From a virus, in IMG/VR virus record IMGVR_UViG_3300032282_005135, positions 1-22,601 of that record: 22,601 nt of DNA. One strand, given 5' to 3'. Below the pieces are notes generated by a model. It was not told the DNA's origin. It was given only the letters and a program-made list of their open reading frames with translations, and made no database searches. The number at the start of each line of letters is the position of its first letter. Position 1 is the first letter of the stretch. Position numbers and translations under genes: made by a program. Positions 4,543 to 16,497 of the stretch are shown here, in pieces.

Positions 4543-5571
4543 ATGGCACAAAATTATAATATAGGTAATCTTGGTCAAAAGTTATCAGTAGATCTTACTG
4601 CTAATACAATTTCAGTAACTTCTGCTAATACTTTGTCTGTTACAAATCTTGTATTAACTGGTTTTGTTGCGGCCAATGGCACTTCAAATACTGGTACAGC
4701 TGGACAAGCTTTAACGACTAACGGAACAGGTGTTTATTGGTCAACAATTGTTGGTACAAACACAGCTGCTCAATATACTTGGACTAACACTCATACATTT
4801 TCCAATGTTGTAACTTTTACTGCTAATGTTTCGGTTAATGGTGCTATAATACTGGGTGGTAGTAACGGCACTGTTGGACAAGTATTAACTTCTAACGGAA
4901 CAAGTAATACTTTTTGGTCGACCGTACCTAATACTTCAGTTTCATGGTCTTGGACCAACACACATACATTTTCCAATGTTGTAACTTTTACTGCTAATGT
5001 TTCGGTTAATGGAGCTTTGTTCGTAAGTGGTAGTAATGGGTCTGTTGGACAAGTATTAACTTCTAACGGAACAAGTAATACTTTTTGGTCGACCGTACCT
5101 AATACTTCAGTTTCATGGTCTTGGACCAACACTCATACATTTAATTCAAGCGCAACAGCAAATACAATATCGACAGTTATTACTAATATTGCAGAGCCAG
5201 CTACAATTACAGGTTCTGGTGTTGGTACTTCTTATAATTTTTATGTTCAAACTCAGTCAGTAGTATATTTTAATGTTAGTGCTACTGCAAACTGGACTGT
5301 TAATTTTACAGGCAGTAGCGCTGGTCAAACCCTTAATAATCTACTAAGTACAGGTCAGGCTATTACGGTAGTTATTATAGCCCAGCAAGGCGGCACTGCA
5401 TATTATAATACTTCTATTACTGTTGATGGTAATTCGGTAACACCAAAATGGCAGGGTGGAACAGCACCAACAGCTGGTAATGCAAGTTCTTGGGATACAT
5501 ACACATATACGATAATCAAAACTGGTACAAACACATGGTTTGCTCTTGTTGGTCAAACACAATTTAAATAA
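4543..5571 (+). CDS. Tail fibre protein with shared C-terminal tip domain and duplicated 57-residue repeat
   Basis: A 342-residue Thr/Ser/Asn-rich fibre. The N-terminal 60 residues (YNIGNLGQKLSVDLTANT...) probably attach it. The centre has two near-identical 57-residue repeats (from about residue 80) of the form W(T/S)WTNTHTFSNVVTFTANVSVNGA...GQVLTSNGTSNTFWSTVPNTSV, plus the start of a third. The last 125 residues (from about AEPATI to TQFK) are homologous to the C-termini of the products of 10659, 12577 and 15478, with the shared core YF/YYT...ANWTVN, GTAYYN, VTPKWQGG.AP, YTYTIIKTG. By analogy with gp37 of T2/S16-type phages this domain is likely to carry the adhesin encoded 15 bases downstream. 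The analogy is inference; the homology among the four C-termini is directly visible. Confidence 0.8.
   Translation: MAQNYNIGNLGQKLSVDLTANTISVTSANTLSVTNLVLTGFVAANGTSNTGTAGQALTTNGTGVYWSTIVGTNTAAQYTWTNTHTFSNVVTFTANVSVNGAIILGGSNGTVGQVLTSNGTSNTFWSTVPNTSVSWSWTNTHTFSNVVTFTANVSVNGALFVSGSNGSVGQVLTSNGTSNTFWSTVPNTSVSWSWTNTHTFNSSATANTISTVITNIAEPATITGSGVGTSYNFYVQTQSVVYFNVSATANWTVNFTGSSAGQTLNNLLSTGQAITVVIIAQQGGTAYYNTSITVDGNSVTPKWQGGTAPTAGNASSWDTYTYTIIKTGTNTWFALVGQTQFK
4779..5142 (+). repeat. 171-bp in-frame tandem repeat, two full copies and a partial third
   Basis: Copies start at 4779, 4950 and 5121 (period exactly 171 bases, 57 codons). The third copy stops after about 22 bases. Long stretches are identical at the DNA level, including third codon positions; differences cluster in a short segment after TCGGTTAATGG. 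The duplication is therefore recent and would let fibre length change by recombination or slippage. Confidence 0.9.
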
Positions 5572-5586
5572 TATGAGGATTTTATA

Positions 5587-6330
5587 ATGCCAACAATAAT
5601 TTCTACAGGTTCTGGTGGTGCAGGAAATTATGGTTTTAGTCGTGGGAAAGGTGGGTTTGTACTTTCTATAGCGACTCAAAATAATGTTAATTTAAGGACG
5701 CTTGCTCTTGCTGGAGGTTGGAATGGAACATCTCAAGTAATTGCGACAGTAACAGGAAATATTGGTTCTACTTCTACTGGAACAGCTTCTTTTATTATAA
5801 CTGGTTCTTTTCCAAACGGTGTGGATTTAAGAATTAATAGTGGTGTTTACGTTGTTGGAGCTGGCGGATATGCTGGCGGTAATGGTGGCGGAGCTTTACA
5901 AGTTACTAGTTATACTGGTGGTGCACTAACTGTTACTAATAATGGTATTATTGGTGGCGGCGGTGGCGGTGGTAATAGCTCTGGAGGCGGTGGTGGTGGC
6001 GCTGGTATTACTGCTGGGGCTGCATATGGCAGCCAGGCGACGGCAGGAACAATTACAAATGGTGGTAATGGTGGGGCGGATGGTTGTAATGCTGGTTATG
6101 TTGGAGCTGGCGGCGCTGCTGGGTCTGCTGGGTCTTTTCCTGGTGGCGGTGGTGGTTTAGGAGGCGCTGCAGCTTCTGGTGATTCGTGTTACGGCGATTC
6201 TGATCCATCAGATCCAGGTGGTATTAGATATGGCGGATCAGTAAGTGGCGGCGCTGCTGGTTATGCAGTTTCCGGTACTTCTTCTATAACATGGTTGACT
6301 ACAGGAACAAGATATGGGTCCGTTTCCTAA
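5587..6330 (+). CDS. gp38-like polyglycine receptor-binding adhesin
   Basis: A 247-residue protein. Residues 1-22 (MPTIISTGSG...YGFSRGKGG) form a short conserved head shared with adhesins at 11427, 13606 and 16505. Residues about 25-90 are a beta region. From about residue 91 to 226 there are several glycine runs (about 91-103, 120-140, 159-193, 211-226) of the type TVTNNGIIGGGGGGGN and GGAGITAG. This matches the glycine-rich motifs of T2/S16-type gp38 adhesins, where they pack as polyglycine-II helices and the loops bind the receptor. It follows the fibre at 4543 by 15 bases with a TGAGGA ribosome binding site. Its 3' end overlaps the first oxygenase gene by 17 bases. A general glycine-rich fibre tip is the alternative. 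Confidence 0.75.
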   Translation: MPTIISTGSGGAGNYGFSRGKGGFVLSIATQNNVNLRTLALAGGWNGTSQVIATVTGNIGSTSTGTASFIITGSFPNGVDLRINSGVYVVGAGGYAGGNGGGALQVTSYTGGALTVTNNGIIGGGGGGGNSSGGGGGGAGITAGAAYGSQATAGTITNGGNGGADGCNAGYVGAGGAAGSAGSFPGGGGGLGGAAASGDSCYGDSDPSDPGGIRYGGSVSGGAAGYAVSGTSSITWLTTGTRYGSVS

Positions 6331-6982
6331 AAATATTTCACTAATAAATTCACCAATAATTATAGATAATTTTTATGATAATAATGAAGTTTTTTTAAAT
6401 GCTTCTAGGTCATTGAAATATGAAAAATCTAAACTTTATAATTTCCCTGGAGAAAGAACAATTTTTTTCAGCTTAATAAATCCAGAATTGCAAAATATTT
6501 TTATAGAAACATTAAGTAAATATTTTTCCGAAACTGAACAATATGATATATACAGTTCTTTTCAAAAAATAGATGGAAATTTTGTTGAAAATTTAAGCGG
6601 AGGTTGGGTACATACCGATGGAACCTCTAAAAAAACAGATCCTTCTTTTAGTTTTATAGTTTATTTAAATCCTGATGCAGATCCAAAAACAGGTACAACT
6701 TTTTGCAAACCTAAATTGGATTCTTATAGCCCAAATTCTAATTTAAAATTTCGAAATGCATATTACTCAAATCAATATGATATATCAGATAAAGAATTTG
6801 TAATAGCCAAAGAAAAACACAATGATCGATTTGAAGATTATCTTTTTGTTGAAAACAAATATAATCGTTTATTAATGTTTCCTTCGAGTATTCCTCATAA
6901 ACAGAATAGTTTTGGCAATAATGGATATATAAGATACACTCAAGTATCTTTTGCTTATTTAAAAGGTGATGATGATGAATAA
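6314..6982 (+). CDS. 2-oxoglutarate/Fe(II)-dependent dioxygenase-like protein (DUF6445-like)
   Basis: A 222-residue protein. It has a plausible iron-binding triad: H100 and D102 in GGWVHTDG, and H195 in MFPSSIPHKQ. R207 in GYIRYTQVSF is a candidate for binding the 2-oxoglutarate carboxylate. SFIVYLNPD (112-120) and the GTTF turn fit the double-stranded beta-helix core. The arrangement resembles DUF6445-type dioxygenases found in marine phages and bacteria. The family would use O2 and 2-oxoglutarate to hydroxylate a protein or small molecule; the substrate is unknown. The gene overlaps the adhesin upstream by 17 bases and the next oxygenase downstream, so the three are probably translationally coupled. 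The DNA is AT-richer than the fibre genes. Confidence 0.75.
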   Translation: MGPFPKNISLINSPIIIDNFYDNNEVFLNASRSLKYEKSKLYNFPGERTIFFSLINPELQNIFIETLSKYFSETEQYDIYSSFQKIDGNFVENLSGGWVHTDGTSKKTDPSFSFIVYLNPDADPKTGTTFCKPKLDSYSPNSNLKFRNAYYSNQYDISDKEFVIAKEKHNDRFEDYLFVENKYNRLLMFPSSIPHKQNSFGNNGYIRYTQVSFAYLKGDDDE

Positions 6983-7697
6983 CTTTTTCAACGACGATTA
7001 TAATATATCAGAATATAACGAATCTTTTAAAAAACATAAAGTTGTTGAAATTGAAAACTTTTTCGACAATACTTTTGCAAACAAACTTTCAAAAGAAATG
7101 ATTGATCAACATGAAAATGGATTAGATTTCGCTACTTCTTTTCCATTTACCAAAAGACAAACTCATAACGGTATACCAAATTTACCAGAAAATCAAGAAT
7201 ATATTAAAGAAGCTCACGAGTTTGCTTTAAAACATTATAATGATAATGAATATTCTAGATTTTACTATAGGATTTCTACAACTGGACCAAATTGTACAGA
7301 ATGTTTGGGTTCAATAAAAGAAATGTTTAAAACTTCTTATTTTATTAATAAGATGAAAAAAATAACTGGTTTGAACGAATTATTTCTTTTATACGTAGAA
7401 CCATTTGTATACACAAAAGATTGTTTTCTTAGTATCCATACAGATTCATTAAAACAAAATAGAGTAGTTGCAGCTGTTGTTCATTTATCAAAAGATTGGG
7501 AAAAAGAAGATGGTGGAGTTTATATTTACAGTTCAGAATCCGATAAGGTCAATCAATATATTCCAAAATTCAATAACGTATTAATTACCGATATAAGAAA
7601 CGAACAGTTACCGCATGCGGTTACAATTGTAAAAAGTTCAAAACCAAGGTTAACAATTGCTGCATGGTTTTCTGATAAAGAAATTAGTTGTATGTAA
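6975..7697 (+). CDS. 2OG-Fe(II) oxygenase (prolyl 4-hydroxylase-like), copy 1
   Basis: About 240 residues. GTG at 6966 and ATGs at 6969, 6972 and 6975 are in frame. I choose 6975 because the AAAAGG at 6961-6966 is then eight bases away; 6972 is also possible. Numbered from 6975, the triad is H155/D157 in FLSIHTDS and H214 in QLPHAV, with R225 in KPRLTIAAWF for 2-oxoglutarate. VVHLSKDW..EDGGVYIY is the core strand and DGG turn typical of the P4Hc/SM-20-like superfamily. The product is clearly paralogous to the next gene. It overlaps the upstream oxygenase by 8 bases and the downstream stop/start by 1. It could modify a fibre or adhesin protein, or a host component; there is no direct evidence for either. 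Confidence 0.85.
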   Translation: MNNFFNDDYNISEYNESFKKHKVVEIENFFDNTFANKLSKEMIDQHENGLDFATSFPFTKRQTHNGIPNLPENQEYIKEAHEFALKHYNDNEYSRFYYRISTTGPNCTECLGSIKEMFKTSYFINKMKKITGLNELFLLYVEPFVYTKDCFLSIHTDSLKQNRVVAAVVHLSKDWEKEDGGVYIYSSESDKVNQYIPKFNNVLITDIRNEQLPHAVTIVKSSKPRLTIAAWFSDKEISCM

Positions 7698-8347
7698 TGC
7701 CTTCAATAATACAAGTTGAAAATATTTTCGAACCAGAATTCGCCAAACTTGTTGCCGAAGAAATGATCATTCAACAAGAAAAAGGAGAAAGCGTATATAA
7801 ATCCTACCCATATTCTCCAGATGGAATCCAAAAAGAACAAGGTATAATCAATAGTATTGAAAATAGAGAAGCTATATTAAAAGAAATTGAATTTGTAAAA
7901 CAAGATTATATTAAAAATAATAAATTTTCTAGATCTTATTATTTTTTAAAACCCGATAAAATTATGAAACAATCGATAGATATTTTAGAAAATGATTTTT
8001 TTGCTAATTTAATTACTAAAAAAACAGGAATTACTAATTTAAAATTGGCTACTTTGGAATTTTACATTTATGAAAAAGATGGTTTTCTTGCACCGCATTA
8101 TGATATAACTCAAAATAACAGAGTTATTACAACAATAATTTATTTGAATGAAAATTGGAAAAAAGAAGACGGTGGGTTGTATATGTACTCCGACGCCGAA
8201 AACGACCCAGTTAATGTTTTTGTTCCTAAATTTAATAGTATGTTAATAACTAACATAAGCACAAAAACTCATTTACATGGTGTTTCTTTTATTAAAACAA
8301 ATAAACGAAGATTAACTATAACATGCTCATGGAGTAAAATGGAATGA
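7697..8347 (+). CDS. 2OG-Fe(II) oxygenase (prolyl 4-hydroxylase-like), copy 2
   Basis: A 216-residue protein starting at the ATG in a TAATG stop/start overlap; a TTG upstream at 7688 is less likely. The triad is H134/D136 in LAPHYDITQNNRV and H194 in THLHGVSF, with R205 in RRLTITCSW. TTIIYLNENWKKEDGGLYMY matches the core of the preceding paralogue. Both proteins begin with a similar helix (VENIFEPEFAKLVAEEMI versus IENFFDNTFANKLSKEMI), so the pair arose by tandem duplication and diverged well. All active-site residues are kept in both, so both are probably active and may have different substrates. The 3' end overlaps the next gene by ATGA. Confidence 0.85.
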   Translation: MPSIIQVENIFEPEFAKLVAEEMIIQQEKGESVYKSYPYSPDGIQKEQGIINSIENREAILKEIEFVKQDYIKNNKFSRSYYFLKPDKIMKQSIDILENDFFANLITKKTGITNLKLATLEFYIYEKDGFLAPHYDITQNNRVITTIIYLNENWKKEDGGLYMYSDAENDPVNVFVPKFNSMLITNISTKTHLHGVSFIKTNKRRLTITCSWSKME

Positions 8348-8730
8348 ATAGAATTTTTACAAAAGATGATTTTAAATTTAATATTATTCATATGGATGAA
8401 AGTATGTGTAATATTACGGTTCAATTTTACGTTGAAGGCGTCGACTTTTCAAAAATGAATATATCTATAGATTTACCAATTGATGAAAATAATAAAATCC
8501 CTTCTGGCCAAGCTTTGATTGATTATATTAAAGAAGTTACCCCTGTTAGTCAATTACAGTTTTTATATGATAGGTTTATGAAAGCTCCTTTTGTCGACAT
8601 GGGTGAAATTGCTTTTTATGTAAATGATTATAAAAATAAAATAACTTTTAATTTCAAAGAAACCGAATTTAAGGCTCCTGACGAAGTGATAAATACAAAA
8701 TCGCTTCAAAAGGCTATGATGGAGTATTAA
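8344..8730 (+). CDS. Hypothetical protein in the oxygenase block
   Basis: A 128-residue protein that I do not recognise. It is acidic and mixed alpha/beta: N-terminal strands (FNIIHMDESMCNITVQFYVEGVDF), a helix around residues 57-80 (SGQALIDYIKEVTPVSQLQFLYDRF) and further strands (EIAFYVNDYKNKITFNF). There is no signal peptide or membrane segment. It starts at ATGA overlapping the oxygenase stop and ends two bases before the chaperone-like gene, so it is translated with both. A role as a fibre assembly factor or an accessory of the oxygenases is a positional guess only. Confidence 0.65.
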   Translation: MNRIFTKDDFKFNIIHMDESMCNITVQFYVEGVDFSKMNISIDLPIDENNKIPSGQALIDYIKEVTPVSQLQFLYDRFMKAPFVDMGEIAFYVNDYKNKITFNFKETEFKAPDEVINTKSLQKAMMEY

Positions 8731-8732
8731 AA

Positions 8733-9239
8733 ATGCCATACGCAAAAATAAAAAATGATTCAATAGTAATTTACCCTTATTCTTTTGATAATTTGGTAGA
8801 AGAAAACCCACATACTATTTTTTCAAATTCTCCATTACCAGAATTATATAAAGAAACCGATTTTGCAAATGATGGTTCTTTTGTTGTCGAGGTTATAGAA
8901 TTACAGGAACCTATTGTAACGGATTATAGAAATATAGCAGAATTGAATTCTTTACCAACTTTTGTAGATAATTTATGGTGTTTAGAATGGTCTGTTAGAT
9001 TGAGAACGGATTCTGAACTTCAGCAAATAACTGAACAAGAAGAAATGAAAAATCGTTTACGTAGAGATCAAATGTTACAATCAACAGATTGGACTCAGTT
9101 GGCAGATACAAATGAATTGACTAAACAAAATTTCGCAAGTTTTCGTCAGGATCTTAGAGATGTACCACAACAAGAAGGGTTCCCATGGAATATTGTTTGG
9201 CCAGAGTTAAACCCTAGAATATCAGAAGCTCTTTTATAA
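8733..9239 (+). CDS. Fused two-domain tail/fibre assembly chaperone-like protein
   Basis: A 168-residue protein joining two domains found separately elsewhere in this window. Residues 1-92 (PYAKIKNDSIVIYPYSFDNLVEENPHTIF ... FVDNLWCLEWSV) match the products of 3896 and 12243. Residues about 103-158 carry the Phage_tail_APC signature (RRDQMLQSTDWTQLAD, FASFRQDLRDVPQQEGFPWNIVWP), matching the product of 4289. A charged linker joins them at about 93-108. The fusion argues that the separate halves work together. It probably assists folding or attachment of the adhesin/fibre of this cassette. GATAAATA at 8688-8695, inside the upstream gene, is a possible weak late promoter. Confidence 0.75.
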   Translation: MPYAKIKNDSIVIYPYSFDNLVEENPHTIFSNSPLPELYKETDFANDGSFVVEVIELQEPIVTDYRNIAELNSLPTFVDNLWCLEWSVRLRTDSELQQITEQEEMKNRLRRDQMLQSTDWTQLADTNELTKQNFASFRQDLRDVPQQEGFPWNIVWPELNPRISEALL

Positions 9240-9254
9240 TTTGAAAGATATATT

Positions 9255-9854
9255 ATGTTTGAATTTTTTATTACACTAGCCCGTGAAGGGCTTGAAGCTT
9301 TTTTAATTACTTCTATTGTTTTTACTTATTTGAAAAAAACAGGGCAAAACAACTTAAATAAAATTGTTATATTGGCAATGATATTTTCTTCAATAGCTTC
9401 TTTATTTTTAGGATTGGCTGTTTATCAATATGGTAAATTAAATTATTATGTAGAAATAGGGTTGTCTCTTTTATCATGTTTATTGGTTACAAAAATAGCG
9501 ATAAAAATGTTTCGGCTTTCTTATAGGAAATCTCAACTTGATTTTGATAAATTGTTCGAAAGTCGAAAAATAACTTCAAATATTCACTTATTTGTATTTT
9601 TATTTTTGATGTTGTTTAGAGAAGGGATAGAATCTGTTGCTATTTTAGCAAATACCATAATCAACATGGAATCTATTTTTCCTTTTTTAAGTGGCGGTTT
9701 AGGGTTATTAATTGCGGGATTGATATCTATACTTTGGAATAAACTTGGGGAAAAAATTAACATATCGTTATATTTTAGAATAATGAATATTTTTATGGGT
9801 GTATTTGCTATCAATCTTTGGTACTCATTTATTATTGAATTTATTTTTACATAA
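9255..9854 (+). CDS. FTR1/EfeU-like iron permease, shortened form
   Basis: A 199-residue, very hydrophobic protein with about six membrane helices (roughly residues 4-26, 36-58, 64-86, 110-134, 143-163, 172-197). It carries REGLE at 10-14 in helix 1 (LAREGLEAFLITS) and REGIE at 122-126 in helix 4 (LFREGIESVAIL). Two REGxE motifs in helices 1 and 4 are the signature of FTR1/EfeU high-affinity iron permeases, in which the Glu residues bind iron for transport. The segment after helix 5 (GGLGLLIAGLISILWNKLGEKINISLYFRIMN) also follows the EfeU pattern. Bacterial EfeU is about 275 residues with seven helices; this protein ends after helix 6. No periplasmic partner (EfeO/EfeB) is visible. It would act in the host inner membrane. 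A holin is unlikely given the paired motifs. Confidence 0.8.
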   Translation: MFEFFITLAREGLEAFLITSIVFTYLKKTGQNNLNKIVILAMIFSSIASLFLGLAVYQYGKLNYYVEIGLSLLSCLLVTKIAIKMFRLSYRKSQLDFDKLFESRKITSNIHLFVFLFLMLFREGIESVAILANTIINMESIFPFLSGGLGLLIAGLISILWNKLGEKINISLYFRIMNIFMGVFAINLWYSFIIEFIFT

Positions 9855-9857
9855 ATA
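9850..9857 (+). promoter_or_regulatory. T4-like late promoter octamer (CATAAATA)
   Basis: CATAAATA matches TATAAATA in 7 of 8 positions, overlaps the TAA stop of the permease gene (9852-9854) and lies 35 bases before the fibre ATG at 9892, which has a GAGGGG ribosome binding site at 9876-9881. It probably separates expression of the next fibre cassette from the AT-rich block upstream. Confidence 0.55.
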
Positions 9858-9891
9858 GAATAAAATAACGCCAAAGAGGGGATAGTGAACC

Positions 9892-10647
9892 ATGGCAAAT
9901 GCTAATTCAGATTTCGTAGTCAAAAATGGCTTAGTAGTAAACACATCATTCTCAGCCAATTCTTCTAGCATCACAGGTAATAATTTAGTAGCCAATTCCA
10001 GCGGTGTTTATCATTCTGGGATTATTAATGCTGCTTCGCACACAGTTGGTACTTCTACTATTGCTAACTCTACTGGTGTTTATACTGGCGTAGTTAATGC
10101 AGCCTCTTATACTGTTGGTACTTCTACTATTGCTAACTCTACTGGTGTTTATACTGGTGTAGTTAATGCAACAACACATTCTGTCGGAACTTCTTTTATA
10201 GCCAATACCCTTCAAGTAACAATTTCTGGTATACCATTATCTGCCAATGGTTCTAATGGTAGTCAAGCATATGTATTAACTTCCAATGGATCTACAGGAT
10301 CCCCATATTGGGCTTCTCCTGGGTATGTTAATGTTTCAGCGCAATTTGCTTGGGTTAATACACATACATTTAGTGCACCAGTAGTTTTCGCAAACACTAT
10401 AGCGGCTAATGGTTCTGCAAACGTTGGTACAGCCGGATATGTATTAACTTCTGGGGGTGCTGGGGCTAACGTTTATTGGGCAGCTGCAGCTGGAGGTGTC
10501 ACTGCTACTAATGGTATTATTGCAATGGGCAACCAAGTAACCACAAATTATTCTATATCATCGGGCAATAATGGTTTTTCTGTTGGTCCTGTAACTGTTT
10601 CCGCAGCGGTGACTGTCGCCACTGGTTCCCGCTGGTTAATTTTATAG
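9892..10647 (+). CDS. Tail fibre protein with 23-residue repeats and GSRWxIL-type C-terminus
   Basis: A 251-residue fibre. The N-terminus (MANANSDFVVKNGLVVNTSFSAN) is of the FVVKNGLVVN type common in marine T4-like phage fibres. Residues about 48-105 hold three 23-residue repeats (NAASHTVGTSTIANSTGVYTGVV). The YVLTSNGSTGSPYWAS and AQFAWVNTHTFS modules recur in the other fibres. The C-terminus (YSISSGNNGFSVGPVTVSAAVTVATGSRWLIL) is a complete, common short tip. It lacks the 125-residue domain shared by the other four fibres and is followed by another fibre rather than an adhesin. It may form a shaft or proximal segment joined to the product of 10659. It is the first gene after a late-promoter-like octamer. 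Confidence 0.75.
   Translation: MANANSDFVVKNGLVVNTSFSANSSSITGNNLVANSSGVYHSGIINAASHTVGTSTIANSTGVYTGVVNAASYTVGTSTIANSTGVYTGVVNATTHSVGTSFIANTLQVTISGIPLSANGSNGSQAYVLTSNGSTGSPYWASPGYVNVSAQFAWVNTHTFSAPVVFANTIAANGSANVGTAGYVLTSGGAGANVYWAAAAGGVTATNGIIAMGNQVTTNYSISSGNNGFSVGPVTVSAAVTVATGSRWLIL
10045..10182 (+). repeat. 69-bp in-frame tandem repeat, two near-identical copies
   Basis: Copies begin at 10045 and 10114 (period 69 bases, 23 codons); a diverged copy follows from 10183. The first about 45 bases of each copy are identical. The same 23-residue unit with related DNA recurs at 13003-13140 in the fibre at 12577, so repeats are shared between genes as well as within one. Confidence 0.85.
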
Positions 10648-10658
10648 GAGTATTTTAA

Positions 10659-11417
10659 ATGCCTACAAGCGCATCAATTGCAATTTCTGGTGGAACAAGT
10701 GGTACAGTAAACTTAACAGTGCCTTTGGTAGCTGGTTCCGGAACATTGACATTACCAGCTGGTGTTACTGGTACATTAGCAACATTATCAGATATTTCTA
10801 CAGTATCAGTTAACCAAGCATCTCAATATGCATGGTCTAATTCACAATCGTTTTCTAATACAATATCATTTACTGGTCCAGTTAATCTTTCAAACACTAT
10901 TACAGTTACTGGAACACCTACATTCTCAAATACTGTAACTATTAGTGGTGTTCCTACATTTTCAAATACTTCTACTTTTACAGGTACTTCATCTTTACAG
11001 GGCAATAGTACTTCCCTTGCAGCGATATTTACTAATGCTGCAGAAACTATTAACGTTTCTGCAACAGCTGCTACTGGCACCATCAATTATTATGTAAACA
11101 GTCAGTCTGTATTATATTACACAACAGCTGCTTCTGCCAACTGGACTGTTAACGTAGCATTTTCTTCGACAGCATCTTTAAATTCTGCTTTGGCTACTGG
11201 ACAAGTAGTAACAGTAACTTTTCTTGTAACCCAAGGTGGTACGGCGTACTATAACAATACTTTTAAGGTAGATAACGTTACTGTCACACCAAAATGGCAA
11301 GGCGGAACAGCCCCAACAGGCGGTAATGTTTCCGGCATTGACTCATATACATATACAATAATTAAAACTGGTTCAGCTGCCTTTACTGTTTTGGCAAGTT
11401 TAACACAATTTAAGTGA
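10659..11417 (+). CDS. Tail fibre protein with shared C-terminal tip domain
   Basis: A 252-residue fibre. The N-terminal part (ISGGTSGTVNLTVPLVAGSGTLTLPAGVTGTLATLSDI) matches a common phage-fibre lead-in. It is followed by SQYAWSNSQSFSNTISFTGPV and short VTISGVPTFSNTxTFTGT repeats. The last about 125 residues (from AETINVSATAATGTINYY to LTQFK, 11040-11414) are very close to the C-terminus of the 15478 product and homologous to those of 4543 and 12577. ATAGGAG precedes the ATG. An adhesin-like gene follows after 9 bases. With no long N-terminal anchor, it may assemble on the fibre encoded immediately upstream at 9892. Confidence 0.8.
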   Translation: MPTSASIAISGGTSGTVNLTVPLVAGSGTLTLPAGVTGTLATLSDISTVSVNQASQYAWSNSQSFSNTISFTGPVNLSNTITVTGTPTFSNTVTISGVPTFSNTSTFTGTSSLQGNSTSLAAIFTNAAETINVSATAATGTINYYVNSQSVLYYTTAASANWTVNVAFSSTASLNSALATGQVVTVTFLVTQGGTAYYNNTFKVDNVTVTPKWQGGTAPTGGNVSGIDSYTYTIIKTGSAAFTVLASLTQFK

Positions 11418-11426
11418 GGTTACATA

Positions 11427-12227
11427 ATGTCTTTAATTATTACTGAAACAATTAATTCTGCTAGAGGTTATGGTTATAATGGTAAATCATCTGGACCTAG
11501 TGGGTCCGTAGTATTTCCTGCTGGTACTTCATCATGGACAGCTCCAGCTGGTATTACTAAGTTATTAACAGTTTCTGGCAAAGGAGCTGATGGTGGCAGC
11601 AGCGGTAGTTTCGAACCTGGTAGTTCAGCATATGCGCCTTGTGGGTCTTATTATCCATCATATCCATATGATCTTGTAGCCGAGCCTTCCGGGTATAATC
11701 CTTCATATGCTAGTGAGTCTACTACATTTGCAGATTTATATTATGAATTTAAATCTTATTCAGATGCATGGCTTGCTGGAGTTACCGCTACATCACCACC
11801 AGGAACTAAATTTCAATTTAGTTACCCATATTATGTAACAAATTTTCCTGGCGCTGGCACCAATGGCGCTGGACTACTTGCTAAAGCTTATGGTGATTTT
11901 GGTGGTCTTTTCCCCAATGAGGTGTTTGGATATACATATTATAAAGCAGCAAATGTAGGGGTTTATAGAGATAGTTTACTTAGCCCTAGTAATACTATGA
12001 GATTAGTAGATTATACAGGAGGTGGGTTTTCTATTAACTCTTATATAACCAACTTTTATGTATTTATTGATGGTCAATCTGGGGCATCTACAACTGCGTT
12101 TAGTAGAACTTTTCCAGGCGGGGCGGCGGGTTCCGCAGCTACAATAACAAACTTCAGTAACGTTACAGTTACCCCTGGAACAACATATACTATAGTAAAT
12201 AATGGCTATTTGTCAATAACATATTAA
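11427..12227 (+). CDS. Adhesin-like fibre tip protein (glycine-rich start, aromatic-rich body)
   Basis: A 266-residue protein. Residues 1-22 (MSLIITETINSARGYGYNGKSS) match the short head of the adhesins at 5587 and 16505. Then comes SVVFPAGTSSWTAPAGITKLLTVSGKGADGG, homologous to the start of the 3170 product, and the C-terminus VTVTPGTTYTIVNNGYLSITY also matches that protein. The middle (about residues 60-230) is rich in Tyr, Pro, Ser and Gly and is unlike the other tips, as expected of a receptor-contact region under diversifying selection. It lies 9 bases after the fibre at 10659 with a TGAGGT ribosome binding site over the fibre stop. It is probably the distal receptor-binding protein of that fibre. 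Confidence 0.65.
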   Translation: MSLIITETINSARGYGYNGKSSGPSGSVVFPAGTSSWTAPAGITKLLTVSGKGADGGSSGSFEPGSSAYAPCGSYYPSYPYDLVAEPSGYNPSYASESTTFADLYYEFKSYSDAWLAGVTATSPPGTKFQFSYPYYVTNFPGAGTNGAGLLAKAYGDFGGLFPNEVFGYTYYKAANVGVYRDSLLSPSNTMRLVDYTGGGFSINSYITNFYVFIDGQSGASTTAFSRTFPGGAAGSAATITNFSNVTVTPGTTYTIVNNGYLSITY

Positions 12228-12242
12228 TGTAGGAATAAAAAT

Positions 12243-12572
12243 ATGTATGCAAAGGTAAAAAATAATGAATTAGTCAAATTCCCATATGGGTTTAGTGATC
12301 TTCAAACTGACAACCCTCATTCTATTTTTTCTGGCGTTTTGATTTTGTTAGACCTTTTTAACGAAACAGAAGAAAAACTATTAAAAGGATATGATTTAGT
12401 TGAAGTTAAACAATTACCAACACCCAAAGAATATAATTTTCAATTACAAAAAGCTACTTTAAACGATCAACCAACATTAAACGAAAATGGTGAATGGGAA
12501 TTAGGTTGGACAATTTCATTTTTATCTCCTTCTGAAATAGCTTCAGAAAGAGATAAATTAAAAATAGGATAG
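12243..12572 (+). CDS. Tail/fibre assembly chaperone-like protein, N-terminal domain only
   Basis: A 109-residue protein. MYAKVKNNELVKFPYGFSDLQTDNPHSIF at the start and QPTLNENGEWELGWTISFLSPSEI near the end match residues 1-92 of the 8733 product and the 3896 product. There is no Phage_tail_APC domain in the protein or immediately downstream, where a fibre gene begins four bases after the stop. It may act alone or with the APC-type domain encoded elsewhere (4289 or 8733). It occupies the cassette-end position after an adhesin gene, as 3896 does. TAGGAA precedes the ATG. Confidence 0.6.
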   Translation: MYAKVKNNELVKFPYGFSDLQTDNPHSIFSGVLILLDLFNETEEKLLKGYDLVEVKQLPTPKEYNFQLQKATLNDQPTLNENGEWELGWTISFLSPSEIASERDKLKIG

Positions 12573-12576
12573 GTTA

Positions 12577-13593
12577 ATGTCAACTTTATTAAACGCTCAA
12601 ACGATTTCTCCAGCTGGTTTAATAGTAACGCCAGACAGTAATGGTGATTTAAAATTACAGAGCAATGGCACTACAGTTGTTACTGTAACAAACACATATT
12701 ATGTTGGTATTAATAATGCTTCTCCAACTACATCATTATCAGTATATGGAACAACTTATATTGGTGGTAATTTGCAAATTGCACCATCTTCTTTAATTAT
12801 TGATTCGCTTAATTCTCAAGGACAATCTGGACAAGTATTAACATCTAATGGTGCTGGTAATGTTTATTGGTCTTCAATTTCTGGCGCTCTTTCCGCTAAC
12901 GTTAATGCTCAGTATACATGGGTAAACACTCATACGTTTTCTAATACTATTACTTTTACTGGTGCTGTTAGAGCAAATACAGTTAATGCAGCCTCTCATA
13001 CAGTTGGTACTTCCACTATCGCAAATACAACAGGTGTGTATACAGGTATTGTTAACGCAGCCTCTCATACAGTTGGAACGAATTTTGTTGCTAATACTAC
13101 TGGTGTTTATACCACGGGTATTGTTAACACGGCTGCTATCACTGGTCTATCGAACACACTTACTCTTTCTGGTAATAGTAGTACTCTTGCCACATTATTG
13201 ACTAATGCTGCAGAAACTACAACTGTTAATACAACAGTAAGTGCATTAACTGGAACTATAAATTATTATGTAAGCACTCAATCAGTTTTATATTTTACAC
13301 AATCTGCGGCTGCTAACTGGACACCAAACGTAGCATTTTCTTCTACTACTTCATTAGACACAGCAATGAACGTTGGTCAAACTTTGTCAATTGCTTTTTT
13401 AGCAACACAAGGTTCTACAGCATATTATAGTAGTACATTTAAAATTGATAATGTTTCCGTCACACCAAAATGGTTAGGTGGTTCTGCGCCAGGTTTTGGA
13501 AATCCAAGCGGAATAGATGCTTATTTTTATACAATAATTAAAACTGGATCCGCTACTTGGACTGTGCTAGCTTCTTCATCAAGATACACTTGA
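12577..13593 (+). CDS. Tail fibre protein with shared C-terminal tip domain
   Basis: A 338-residue fibre. The N-terminus (LNAQTISPAGLIVTPDSNGDLKLQSNGTTVVTVTNTYYVGINNASPTTSLSVYG) is a classic phage tail-fibre lead-in. Next come SGQVLTSNGAGNVYWSS and AQYTWVNTHTFSNTITFTGAV modules, then two 23-residue NAASHTVGT units. The segment TAAITGLSNTLTLSGNSSTLATLLTNAAETT is nearly the same as in the 15478 product. The last about 125 residues (13210-13590) are the shared tip domain (VTPKWLGGSAP, YFYTIIKTG), ending SSRYT instead of QFK. The altered end may reflect its different partner, the beta-propeller protein encoded 12 bases downstream. Confidence 0.8.
   Translation: MSTLLNAQTISPAGLIVTPDSNGDLKLQSNGTTVVTVTNTYYVGINNASPTTSLSVYGTTYIGGNLQIAPSSLIIDSLNSQGQSGQVLTSNGAGNVYWSSISGALSANVNAQYTWVNTHTFSNTITFTGAVRANTVNAASHTVGTSTIANTTGVYTGIVNAASHTVGTNFVANTTGVYTTGIVNTAAITGLSNTLTLSGNSSTLATLLTNAAETTTVNTTVSALTGTINYYVSTQSVLYFTQSAAANWTPNVAFSSTTSLDTAMNVGQTLSIAFLATQGSTAYYSSTFKIDNVSVTPKWLGGSAPGFGNPSGIDAYFYTIIKTGSATWTVLASSSRYT
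13003..13140 (+). repeat. 69-bp in-frame repeat shared with another fibre gene
   Basis: Two units start at 13003 and 13072 (period 69). They encode the same NAASHTVGT...ANTTGVYT unit as 10045-10182 in the fibre gene at 9892. The second unit here is more diverged. Repeats in separate genes offer sites for recombination between fibres. Confidence 0.75.
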
Positions 13594-13605
13594 GGTAATT
13601 AAAAA

Positions 13606-15438
13606 ATGCCTTCTATAATTACATTTGGAGCTTTATCGCCTCGTTTATCATTTTCTTCCAGTTCATTAAATGATAGATTGATGAGCACAATATATACTGA
13701 TCCTAATTCAATTAATGCATCTTATCAGTACGCTACTTCACCTTTGTCATTTTTAAATGAAGAATATGCATCACCTGCAGACTATAACAAATACAACACT
13801 TATCGATCTCCTAAAGTAGCTGCAGTAGATGTAGACGGAAATCGTTATGTTGCAATAACTCTTGCTTATCTAACTGGAAATAATCCTTCATATTGGCGAA
13901 AACGAGTTGGTGTTATTAAATATAACCCAAGTGGAGTTATAATTTGGTTTAAAGTGTTACGAACTAATGACCCTTCGTCTCAATACGCTAATTTTATACC
14001 TAGTTCCATTATTCTTGACTCTACTACATCTAGCAATCCAAATGTTTATGTAACATCAATGCAAGATACTGATGTATACATTGGAATTTCGGGTTTGATT
14101 GATAAAAATAGATGGAGTCATAATCCTTCGATTCATAAAATTGATAGTTCAGGTAATATTCTATGGAAAAAATATGTCTTCACTGGACAAAAAACCGATG
14201 ATTATCGTATTTCATATTTTAGTTCTCTTGAAAATATAATATTAGATAGTAGTGGAAATGTATGTGTATGTGGCACTATACGTTATTTTAGTGCCACATC
14301 CCCATATGATGCTAATGGAAACGATATTGGTATTATTATGAAATTTAATAGTACTGGAACATTAATATGGCAAAAAACATTTGGGTATCATAGCGGAACT
14401 ACTTATAAAAGTGATAAATTATTAGGAATGTCAATCGATTCTTCTGATAATATCTATATATGTGGTGCTTCTAGTTATGGTCCAAATGTTTCCAATATTG
14501 CAGGTACACCTATATCTGCACTTAGACCAATTATTTTAAAATTCAATTCTTCCGGAACATTATTAAATCGTTATGATATACAAAGATTTTCAGGCGGCGG
14601 CACCACAGATGCTGGTAACGATCGTTACAATATGAATTTTATTATGGAAGCTCGTGATATTAAAGTAGATTCTTCCGGAAATATTTACATTTGTGGTTAC
14701 AGTAATTCAGCTAATACTTTAAATTATGGTCAAAGAGCTTTTGTTATGAAACTTAATAGTAGTTTTACTATAGTTTGGCAAAAATTTTTATATGGCGCAA
14801 TTGCTGATCCATCTGCAACTATTCATAATACATTAGATCAAATAGTATTAAGTTCAATAGAATTAGATAGTAGTGGAAACGTTTATGTTGGGGGCGATTA
14901 TTGGTTAAGAAATAATATACCTAATGAAGATGGCGAATATACTATTACAGAAATAGGAGCGATTGTTGCCAAATATAACAATTCAGGCGTTTTACAATGG
15001 CAAAATAAATTTACCGCTCCGGACAGTTCATGGACCCCAACAAACTATTTTGGTCCGGGTACATGGATAAATTCTTTATGTTTAACAAATAACTCTTCTA
15101 AAATTTTAGTTGCTGGTGGTACTTATTGGCAAAGTCGTAGAACGGCTTGGTCTGGAGAAATAAAAACCGATGGTTCTGGCGCTGGAACATCTACTATCTT
15201 TAGTCCATATCCAACATCGTTCATATATTCTGCTGCTAATTTTTCTCAATATACTAGTTCTTTATCTATAATGGCTGCCACAACTCCAGATATAAATGTA
15301 GAAACTAGTACTTATGAGGTAAATATTAAAGATCAATGGTATAGTGTTTCAACTAGTTTTACTATCGATAGCGAAACTGATTACATATATGATACTAATT
15401 ATTCTTCAGCTATACTATCAAAATTTGGGTATTTTTAA
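13606..15438 (+). CDS. Seven-repeat beta-propeller adhesin (SBBP-like)
   Basis: A 610-residue protein. Residues 1-20 begin MPSIITFGALSPRLSFSSSS, similar to the head of the adhesins at 5587 and 16505. The body contains about seven repeats of the form h-x-(V/L/I)DSSGN(I/V)YICG: VAAVDVDGNRYVAI, SSIILDS..NVYVTSM, NIILDSSGNVCVCGTI, GMSIDSSDNIYICGAS, DIKVDSSGNIYICGYS, SIELDSSGNVYVGGDY, SLCLTNNSSKILVAGGT. Most are followed by a (L/V)xWQKxF strand. This is the pattern of SBBP-type propellers, and seven copies fit a closed seven-bladed ring. The last about 90 residues are a separate tail. It lies 12 bases after its fibre (12577). It is most likely a receptor-binding tip, perhaps for a glycan; no catalytic residues are evident. 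Confidence 0.75.
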   Translation: MPSIITFGALSPRLSFSSSSLNDRLMSTIYTDPNSINASYQYATSPLSFLNEEYASPADYNKYNTYRSPKVAAVDVDGNRYVAITLAYLTGNNPSYWRKRVGVIKYNPSGVIIWFKVLRTNDPSSQYANFIPSSIILDSTTSSNPNVYVTSMQDTDVYIGISGLIDKNRWSHNPSIHKIDSSGNILWKKYVFTGQKTDDYRISYFSSLENIILDSSGNVCVCGTIRYFSATSPYDANGNDIGIIMKFNSTGTLIWQKTFGYHSGTTYKSDKLLGMSIDSSDNIYICGASSYGPNVSNIAGTPISALRPIILKFNSSGTLLNRYDIQRFSGGGTTDAGNDRYNMNFIMEARDIKVDSSGNIYICGYSNSANTLNYGQRAFVMKLNSSFTIVWQKFLYGAIADPSATIHNTLDQIVLSSIELDSSGNVYVGGDYWLRNNIPNEDGEYTITEIGAIVAKYNNSGVLQWQNKFTAPDSSWTPTNYFGPGTWINSLCLTNNSSKILVAGGTYWQSRRTAWSGEIKTDGSGAGTSTIFSPYPTSFIYSAANFSQYTSSLSIMAATTPDINVETSTYEVNIKDQWYSVSTSFTIDSETDYIYDTNYSSAILSKFGYF

Positions 15439-15444
15439 TTCTAA

Positions 15445-15452
15445 TATAAATA
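15445..15452 (+). promoter_or_regulatory. T4-like late promoter octamer (TATAAATA)
   Basis: An exact match to the T4 late promoter, in the 39-base gap between genes, 25 bases upstream of the ATG at 15478. An AGAGGA ribosome binding site sits between them. This is the best promoter match in the window. Confidence 0.7.
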
Positions 15453-15477
15453 ATAATAATAAAAGAGGAATTGTCAT

Positions 15478-16497
15478 ATGACAACAATTATTTCAGGAAC
15501 TAATAACCCAATAGCTGGCGGTGTCGGATATGGTGACACAACTAACTTGTTATTTACTCCTGCTGGAACCGCAAACCAAGTTCTTGTTTCCAATGGTACC
15601 AATGCACCGTTGTTCACTAGCAATTTAACTCTTACTTCTATTAATACTGGATCTTTTATTGCGAACTCAACACAGGTAACAATACCTGCAGGTATACCGC
15701 TTTCGGCGAATGGCTCTACTGGTCAAGCCACATATGTTTTAACTTCGAACGGTTCTACTGGTGCACCTTATTGGGCATCGGTTTCTGGCGCATCAACTAC
15801 TAATGTTAATGCTACTTTTGCATGGACAAACACTCAATCGTTTTCAAATACAATAACATTTAATGGTCCTATTAGATCAACTAATACAGTAAACTCAACA
15901 TCTTATACTATTGGAACGATTTTTGTAGCAAACACAATAGCTTTAACTGCAAATGGTTTATCAGTTAATTCTTCATCTTTTACTGCAAATGGATTAATCA
16001 CAAATTCTTCTGGAGCCTATGTTACTGGTGTTGTTAATACAGCTGCTATTACTGGTTTATCAAACACCCTTACTCTTTCAGGTAATAGTAGTACAATAGC
16101 TACATTATTAACTAATGCTGCAGAAACTACTAACGTTTCTGCAACAGCAGCTACTGGAACCATAAATTATTATATTGCAAGCCAATCTGTTCTTTATTAC
16201 ACAACAGCTGCTTCTGCCAACTGGACTGTTAACGTTGCGTTTTCTAGTGGAACAACTTTGAATTCTGCTTTGGCCACGGGCCAGGCGGTTTCTTTTGTAT
16301 TTATGGCGACGCAAGGCGGGACTGCATATTATAACAATACTTTTAAAATAGATAATGTTGCAGTTACTCCTAAATGGCAGGGTGGGTCAGCGCCAACAGG
16401 TGGTAATGTTTCTGGTGTAGATATATACACCTATACTATTGTTAAAACTGGTTCTTCCGCCTGGTCTGTATTCGCTTCATTGTCTCAATTTAAATGA
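15478..16497 (+). CDS. Tail fibre protein with shared C-terminal tip domain
   Basis: A 339-residue fibre. The N-terminus (MTTIISGTNNPIAGGVGYGDTTNLLFTPAGTANQVLVSNGTNAPLFTSNL) is followed by ATYVLTSNGSTGAPYWAS, NATFAWTNTQSFSNTITFNGPI and several ANTxxLTANGLSVNSSS turns. The segment TAAITGLSNTLTLSGNSST matches the fibre at 12577. The last about 125 residues (16120-16494) are nearly the same as those of the fibre at 10659; 41 bases at 16195-16235 are identical to 11115-11155. It is the first gene after an exact late promoter octamer, and its adhesin gene follows after 7 bases. The first few residues (MTTIISG) faintly resemble the adhesin heads, which may be chance. Confidence 0.8.
   Translation: MTTIISGTNNPIAGGVGYGDTTNLLFTPAGTANQVLVSNGTNAPLFTSNLTLTSINTGSFIANSTQVTIPAGIPLSANGSTGQATYVLTSNGSTGAPYWASVSGASTTNVNATFAWTNTQSFSNTITFNGPIRSTNTVNSTSYTIGTIFVANTIALTANGLSVNSSSFTANGLITNSSGAYVTGVVNTAAITGLSNTLTLSGNSSTIATLLTNAAETTNVSATAATGTINYYIASQSVLYYTTAASANWTVNVAFSSGTTLNSALATGQAVSFVFMATQGGTAYYNNTFKIDNVAVTPKWQGGSAPTGGNVSGVDIYTYTIVKTGSSAWSVFASLSQFK

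Follow-up and report, generated by a model that had tools for sequence, protein, structure and literature searches.

The window, the whole 22,601 nt stretch of DNA analysed here, encodes a real phage-borne homologue of the FTR1 iron permeases, a six-helix variant of a known family. The explanation that we favour as a whole, and consider fairly probable, is that the phage acquired this six-helix FTR1 and that it would import iron during infection. Based on its sequence relationships, the gene is best read as a host-derived minimal iron permease that appears to be carried as an accessory gene: it lies between phage genes on a genuine phage contig, has cellular homologues, and is missing from relatives at the same place.

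The contig is T4-like, with good matches for the large terminase, neck protein, head-tail adaptor, tail sheath stabiliser, and tail chaperone, and is judged from these genes to be that of a genuine T4-like phage. The isolates nearest by terminase are the Sinorhizobium phages phiN3 and phiM12 (56-58%), followed at about 50% by Pseudoalteromonas, Synechococcus, and Methylophilales phages. Between 5587 and 10647 every gene is on the same strand, with intergenic gaps of -17 to 37 nt, and this block contains the following features:

6314..6982, plus strand: DUF6445 gene with an HxD...H...R pattern as in Fe(II)/2-oxoglutarate (2OG) oxygenases (Pfam, 4.4e-8; residues)
6966..7697, plus strand: 2OG-Fe(II) oxygenase (Pfam, 1.6e-13)
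7688..8347, plus strand: 2OG-Fe(II) oxygenase (Pfam, 2.1e-14)
8344..8730, plus strand: gene with no assigned function, within this packed block
8733..9239, plus strand: phage tail assembly chaperone, immediately 5' of the FTR1 gene (Pfam, 1.8e-16)
9255..9854, plus strand: six-helix FTR1-family permease gene, 199 aa, ATG to TAA (ORF, Pfam, AlphaFold2)
9282..9296, plus strand: REGLE codons, residues 10-14 in helix 1 (AlphaFold2 model, motif positions)
9618..9632, plus strand: REGIE codons, residues 122-126 in helix 4 (AlphaFold2 model, motif positions)
9892..10647, plus strand: tail-fibre-like gene, immediately 3' of the FTR1 gene and directly after the chaperone in relatives L201 and L204

The PHROG label of the gene at 6314-6982, 'minor coat protein', may mislead, given its oxygenase-like pattern. 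Separately, the tail-fibre-like ORFs at 4543, 9892, 10659, 12577, and 15478 (window 4543-16497) were found to have repeated modules in common.

An initial annotation, made from the sequence alone, had placed the permease gene among tail genes and near iron enzymes, which agrees with the tail chaperone, tail-fibre genes, and oxygenases of this block. The same gene in the same position in related phages, which it proposed to look for, was not found: no FTR1 was detected in the records of 50 relatives, many of them fragmentary, and in L201 and L204 the chaperone is followed by the fibre gene after 29 and 46 nt with no FTR1 between them. Because the two genes adjoin in L201 and L204 and FTR1 is missing from all 50 records, we read the gene as cargo in a variable tail-fibre region.

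Membership in the family is supported by both profile and motifs. The Pfam FTR1 profile (PF03239) matched residues 1-185 of the window protein with an E-value of 2.5e-17 and 63.5 bits (cut-off 25.3), and a six-frame FTR1 search of the whole record gave 8.9e-20. AlphaFold2 (pLDDT 79, pTM 0.70) modelled six long helices at residues 2-28, 32-59, 64-90, 105-137, 142-165, and 170-198, with REGLE in helix 1 and REGIE in helix 4. The six-helix membrane protein, the two motifs, and the FTR1/EfeU assignment of the initial annotation were all upheld, and neither of the results that it named as speaking against the assignment, a missing FTR1 match or REGxE motifs outside the membrane, was seen. Lysine and arginine residues number 3, 6, and 2 in loops 1-2, 3-4, and 5-6, and 1 and 0 in loops 2-3 and 4-5 (helix ends placed by eye), which is compatible with an N-terminus outside. 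The EfeU-like pattern suspected after helix 5 is real, as KINISLYFRIMNIFMGVFAINL of the window protein aligns with RVNLSLFFQVTAIFMVLFSIQL of a cellular FTR1. Moreover, 11 of the 12 columns that are invariant in 51 cellular FTR1 proteins are kept (hypergeometric p 3e-5), and the consensus of these proteins is matched at 66 of 198 positions (33%).

The protein is distant from characterized members. It scored 60.4 bits with the EfeU equivalog NF041756, below the cut-off of 255, and has six helices rather than the seven of EfeU and Ftr1p, a number that the Pfam model does not require. No match was found in PHROG and no sequence match in the PDB. Searches with the structure model gave nothing informative: the best hit in BFVD had an E-value of 0.07, and structure matches in the PDB were halves of MFS- and ENT-type transporters with Z of at most 13, within the helical-bundle background.

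The short length follows the internal architecture of the family. FTR1 consists of two homologous three-helix repeats, each opened by an REGxE motif (profile comparison, probability 93.9, score 41.3, against scores of 8-14 for 20 column-shuffled control profiles). The window protein comprises exactly these two repeats; it lacks the seventh helix of EfeU because its C-terminus lies where the second repeat ends. It stops at the HExxE motif of the family, whose phage version is IIEFIFT, and has lost the seventh helix, the histidine of the HE motif, and the second glutamate after HE. The view that the protein is shorter than cellular EfeU and without its last helix was therefore correct, with 199 aa, six helices, and no downstream continuation in any frame. 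A frameshift or a lost tail as the cause of the short form was ruled out by reading all downstream frames in this phage and in the second phage described below. All complete relatives in the genome scan have at least 254 aa, and the model of a Methylotenera FTR1 has an extra helix at 228-251. By sequence, the window protein is apparently a shortened member of a full-length FTR1 lineage.

One could read this shortening as decay, with the gene a remnant of a captured host gene that was inactivated by truncation and is a passenger in the variable tail-fibre region. The loss of the last helix and part of HExxE, the very long branch of the protein (3.5-4.8 changes per column), and the 50 relatives' records without FTR1 would fit this. 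However, the frame is open with no frameshift, nearly all invariant residues have been kept despite great divergence, the protein ends exactly after the second repeat, and both cells and another phage have six-helix forms as well, which makes decay an unlikely explanation.

Phage FTR1 copies were found to be very rare in the collections searched. With the window protein (P0001) as query, tblastn of 50,697 phage records gave no match, single-protein scans of viral, phage, and genome collections returned nothing, and two viral scans that used it as the confirming sequence were also without a match. The single-protein scans were empty because the protein is too divergent, so alignments of cellular relatives are needed. 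Cellular FTR1 queries gave five tblastn matches in the phage records, all without annotation, namely one 'UNVERIFIED' faecal contig and four Listeria records. These five were left uncounted as phage FTR1 genes. The faecal phage record (L170 9001-9786, MT835771.1) carries a full-length EfeU-like gene right at the contig edge and may be a host fragment. Among 2.9 million viral contigs searched with FTR1 alignments and a motif pattern, one other phage FTR1 was detected, in L168 and L169. The REGxEA pattern scan returned this gene, four hits that do not match FTR1, and a short FTR1-like fragment that scored under the cut-off; an EfeU-type scan returned none. The viral-contig scans rely on short conserved peptides, and divergent or EfeU-like viral copies may therefore have been missed. 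Among the open-access papers searched, none mentions FTR1 together with auxiliary metabolic genes, and lists of phage metabolic genes seem to lack iron uptake by a virus-encoded permease.

The second phage gene is identical in L168 and L169 and encodes 200 aa with a C-terminal HELLE. The L168 contig contains a primase, a DnaB-like helicase, other phage genes, an Asp/Asn-hydroxylase-like gene, and an FeS-assembly gene; the last, an iron-sulphur cluster assembly protein (PF01883) at 5334-5777, lies about 1.3 kb 3' of the short FTR1. No tail genes were found among the scanned neighbours. Like the window gene, this FTR1 is phage-borne, has a pair of REGxE motifs (REGLE and REGAE in L168), ends at the same point, and has an oxygenase-like gene nearby. 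Unlike the window gene, it belongs to another virus and another FTR1 lineage, and retains HE and the following glutamate.

Short FTR1 genes were also found in cells. In one bacterial order, whose genomes are mostly 1.1-1.5 Mb, frames of 213-233 aa occur in 6 of 147 genomes (L209-L214). A restriction of the short form to phages had still been compatible with 229 genomes and was dropped once the wider survey gave these cellular forms. In the one locus read (L207 3893-6802), a six-helix FTR1 is followed by a catalase-peroxidase gene, KatG-like by sequence reading rather than by search. The L168 protein is nearest to the short cellular FTR1 (33.7%, 94.7 bits, against 77.4 for the best other cellular protein) and, from this similarity, was probably taken up already short.

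The window protein, in contrast, has its best cellular matches in full-length FTR1 of Methylophilaceae (up to 37%, best 102.8 bits). In the fuller tree it falls among full-length beta/gammaproteobacterial FTR1, and the L168 protein groups with the short FTR1 of the small-genome order. A common origin for both phage genes, which a first tree lacking the short cellular forms had kept (p-AU 0.26), was rejected in the fuller tree (p-AU 0.007); both phage branches are long. Since the nearest matches differ and the tree rejects joining them, the two six-helix phage genes are apparently of separate origin. The suggestion of a marine, iron-limited setting was not borne out, the nearest cellular proteins being of Methylophilaceae type.

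In the FTR1 family, iron is carried by the glutamates of the REXXE motifs. Iron import is the likeliest function of the window protein, because both motifs and the full two-repeat core have been kept, and family membership makes it likely. In the proposed scheme, a T4-like phage would have acquired a stand-alone FTR1 gene from a beta/gammaproteobacterium, probably a Methylophilaceae-like one, and would retain the family's six-helix core, made up of two three-helix repeats with one REGxE each. The protein would be made along with the tail-fibre proteins and enter the host inner membrane; this late expression is suggested by the neighbouring genes, and promoter and terminator scans of the window were at chance level. 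The paired glutamates would then carry iron across to the cytoplasm, where it would probably benefit the Fe(II)/2-oxoglutarate oxygenases of the same block or host iron enzymes needed in infection. That the neighbouring oxygenases receive this iron is a guess based on gene position, and oxygenases of the same family occur in 10 of 50 records searched, so their proximity argues only weakly for such a supply. An intact gene in a block with Fe(II) oxygenases and the six-helix FTR1 of six cellular genomes and a second phage support the iron-import explanation; a single known copy, the lost seventh helix, HE histidine, and second glutamate, the lack of a visible partner, and the very long branch count against it. 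Function with neither helix 7 nor encoded partners would be more plausible given the short cellular forms. More tentatively, and with less than even confidence, two three-helix repeats alone may form a complete, partner-free iron permease, and phages may have taken up this six-helix form at least twice, importing iron for their own Fe(II) enzymes.

The membrane protein could instead have been recruited to a different role: it might block or modify a permease of the host, act in superinfection exclusion, or transport another metal, for example Mn(II). In favour of this, reuse of membrane proteins is common among phages, no partner protein came to light, and the gene stands among tail genes and not metabolic genes. 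Nevertheless, the iron-family motifs are the best-conserved part of the protein and none of these uses has direct support, and we regard such recruitment as improbable. A role of the protein in loading virion components, for example tail fibres, with iron is very doubtful: the gene adjoins the tail assembly chaperone and tail-fibre genes, and the Ferrojan Horse idea has been put forward in other phages (Bonnain et al. 2016, as cited in PMC10892097), but a permease alone does not load proteins, relatives have the fibre genes and no FTR1, and the L168 gene has no tail genes among its scanned neighbours. An assembly chimaera, in which a host gene was wrongly joined into the phage contig, is scarcely credible, for although only this contig spans the gene and the near-identical L002 begins just 3' of it, the gene is embedded among closely packed phage genes and separated from each neighbour by a short spacer, no known cellular gene matches above 37%, and its G+C content of 26% is low like that of its phage neighbours.

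The preferred reading, an acquired iron permease, can be compared with known systems. Both yeast Ftr1p and EfeU function as iron permeases, and the seven-helix EfeU of E. coli acts together with EfeO and EfeB; partners of other relatives include P19 (PMC9174327). EfeU of EfeUOB (276 aa) has the same paired REGxE motifs and core as the window protein, with 28% identity, whereas the latter lacks the seventh helix and is far under the equivalog cut-off. No efeO or efeB lies beside the phage gene, whose neighbours are oxygenase, tail chaperone, and tail-fibre genes, and no EfeO, EfeB, or P19-like partner was seen within the fragment. Closer are the stand-alone FTR1 proteins of Methylotenera, other Methylophilaceae, and other beta/gammaproteobacteria (e.g., L088, 262 aa), with 31-37% identity over about 190 residues. 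They have the same REGxE motifs, and the ORFs at the single locus inspected include no EfeO or EfeB; these proteins are, however, full length and possess both a seventh helix and the entire HExxE. If the phage protein transports iron, infection would be tied directly to iron acquisition. The short FTR1 of the small-genome order belongs to another branch of the family, yet it shares the six-helix length and ends shortly after the second repeat. Six-helix length is therefore not unique to phages, and these forms raise the question of whether two repeats suffice for FTR1 and what role helix 7 and the partner proteins play.
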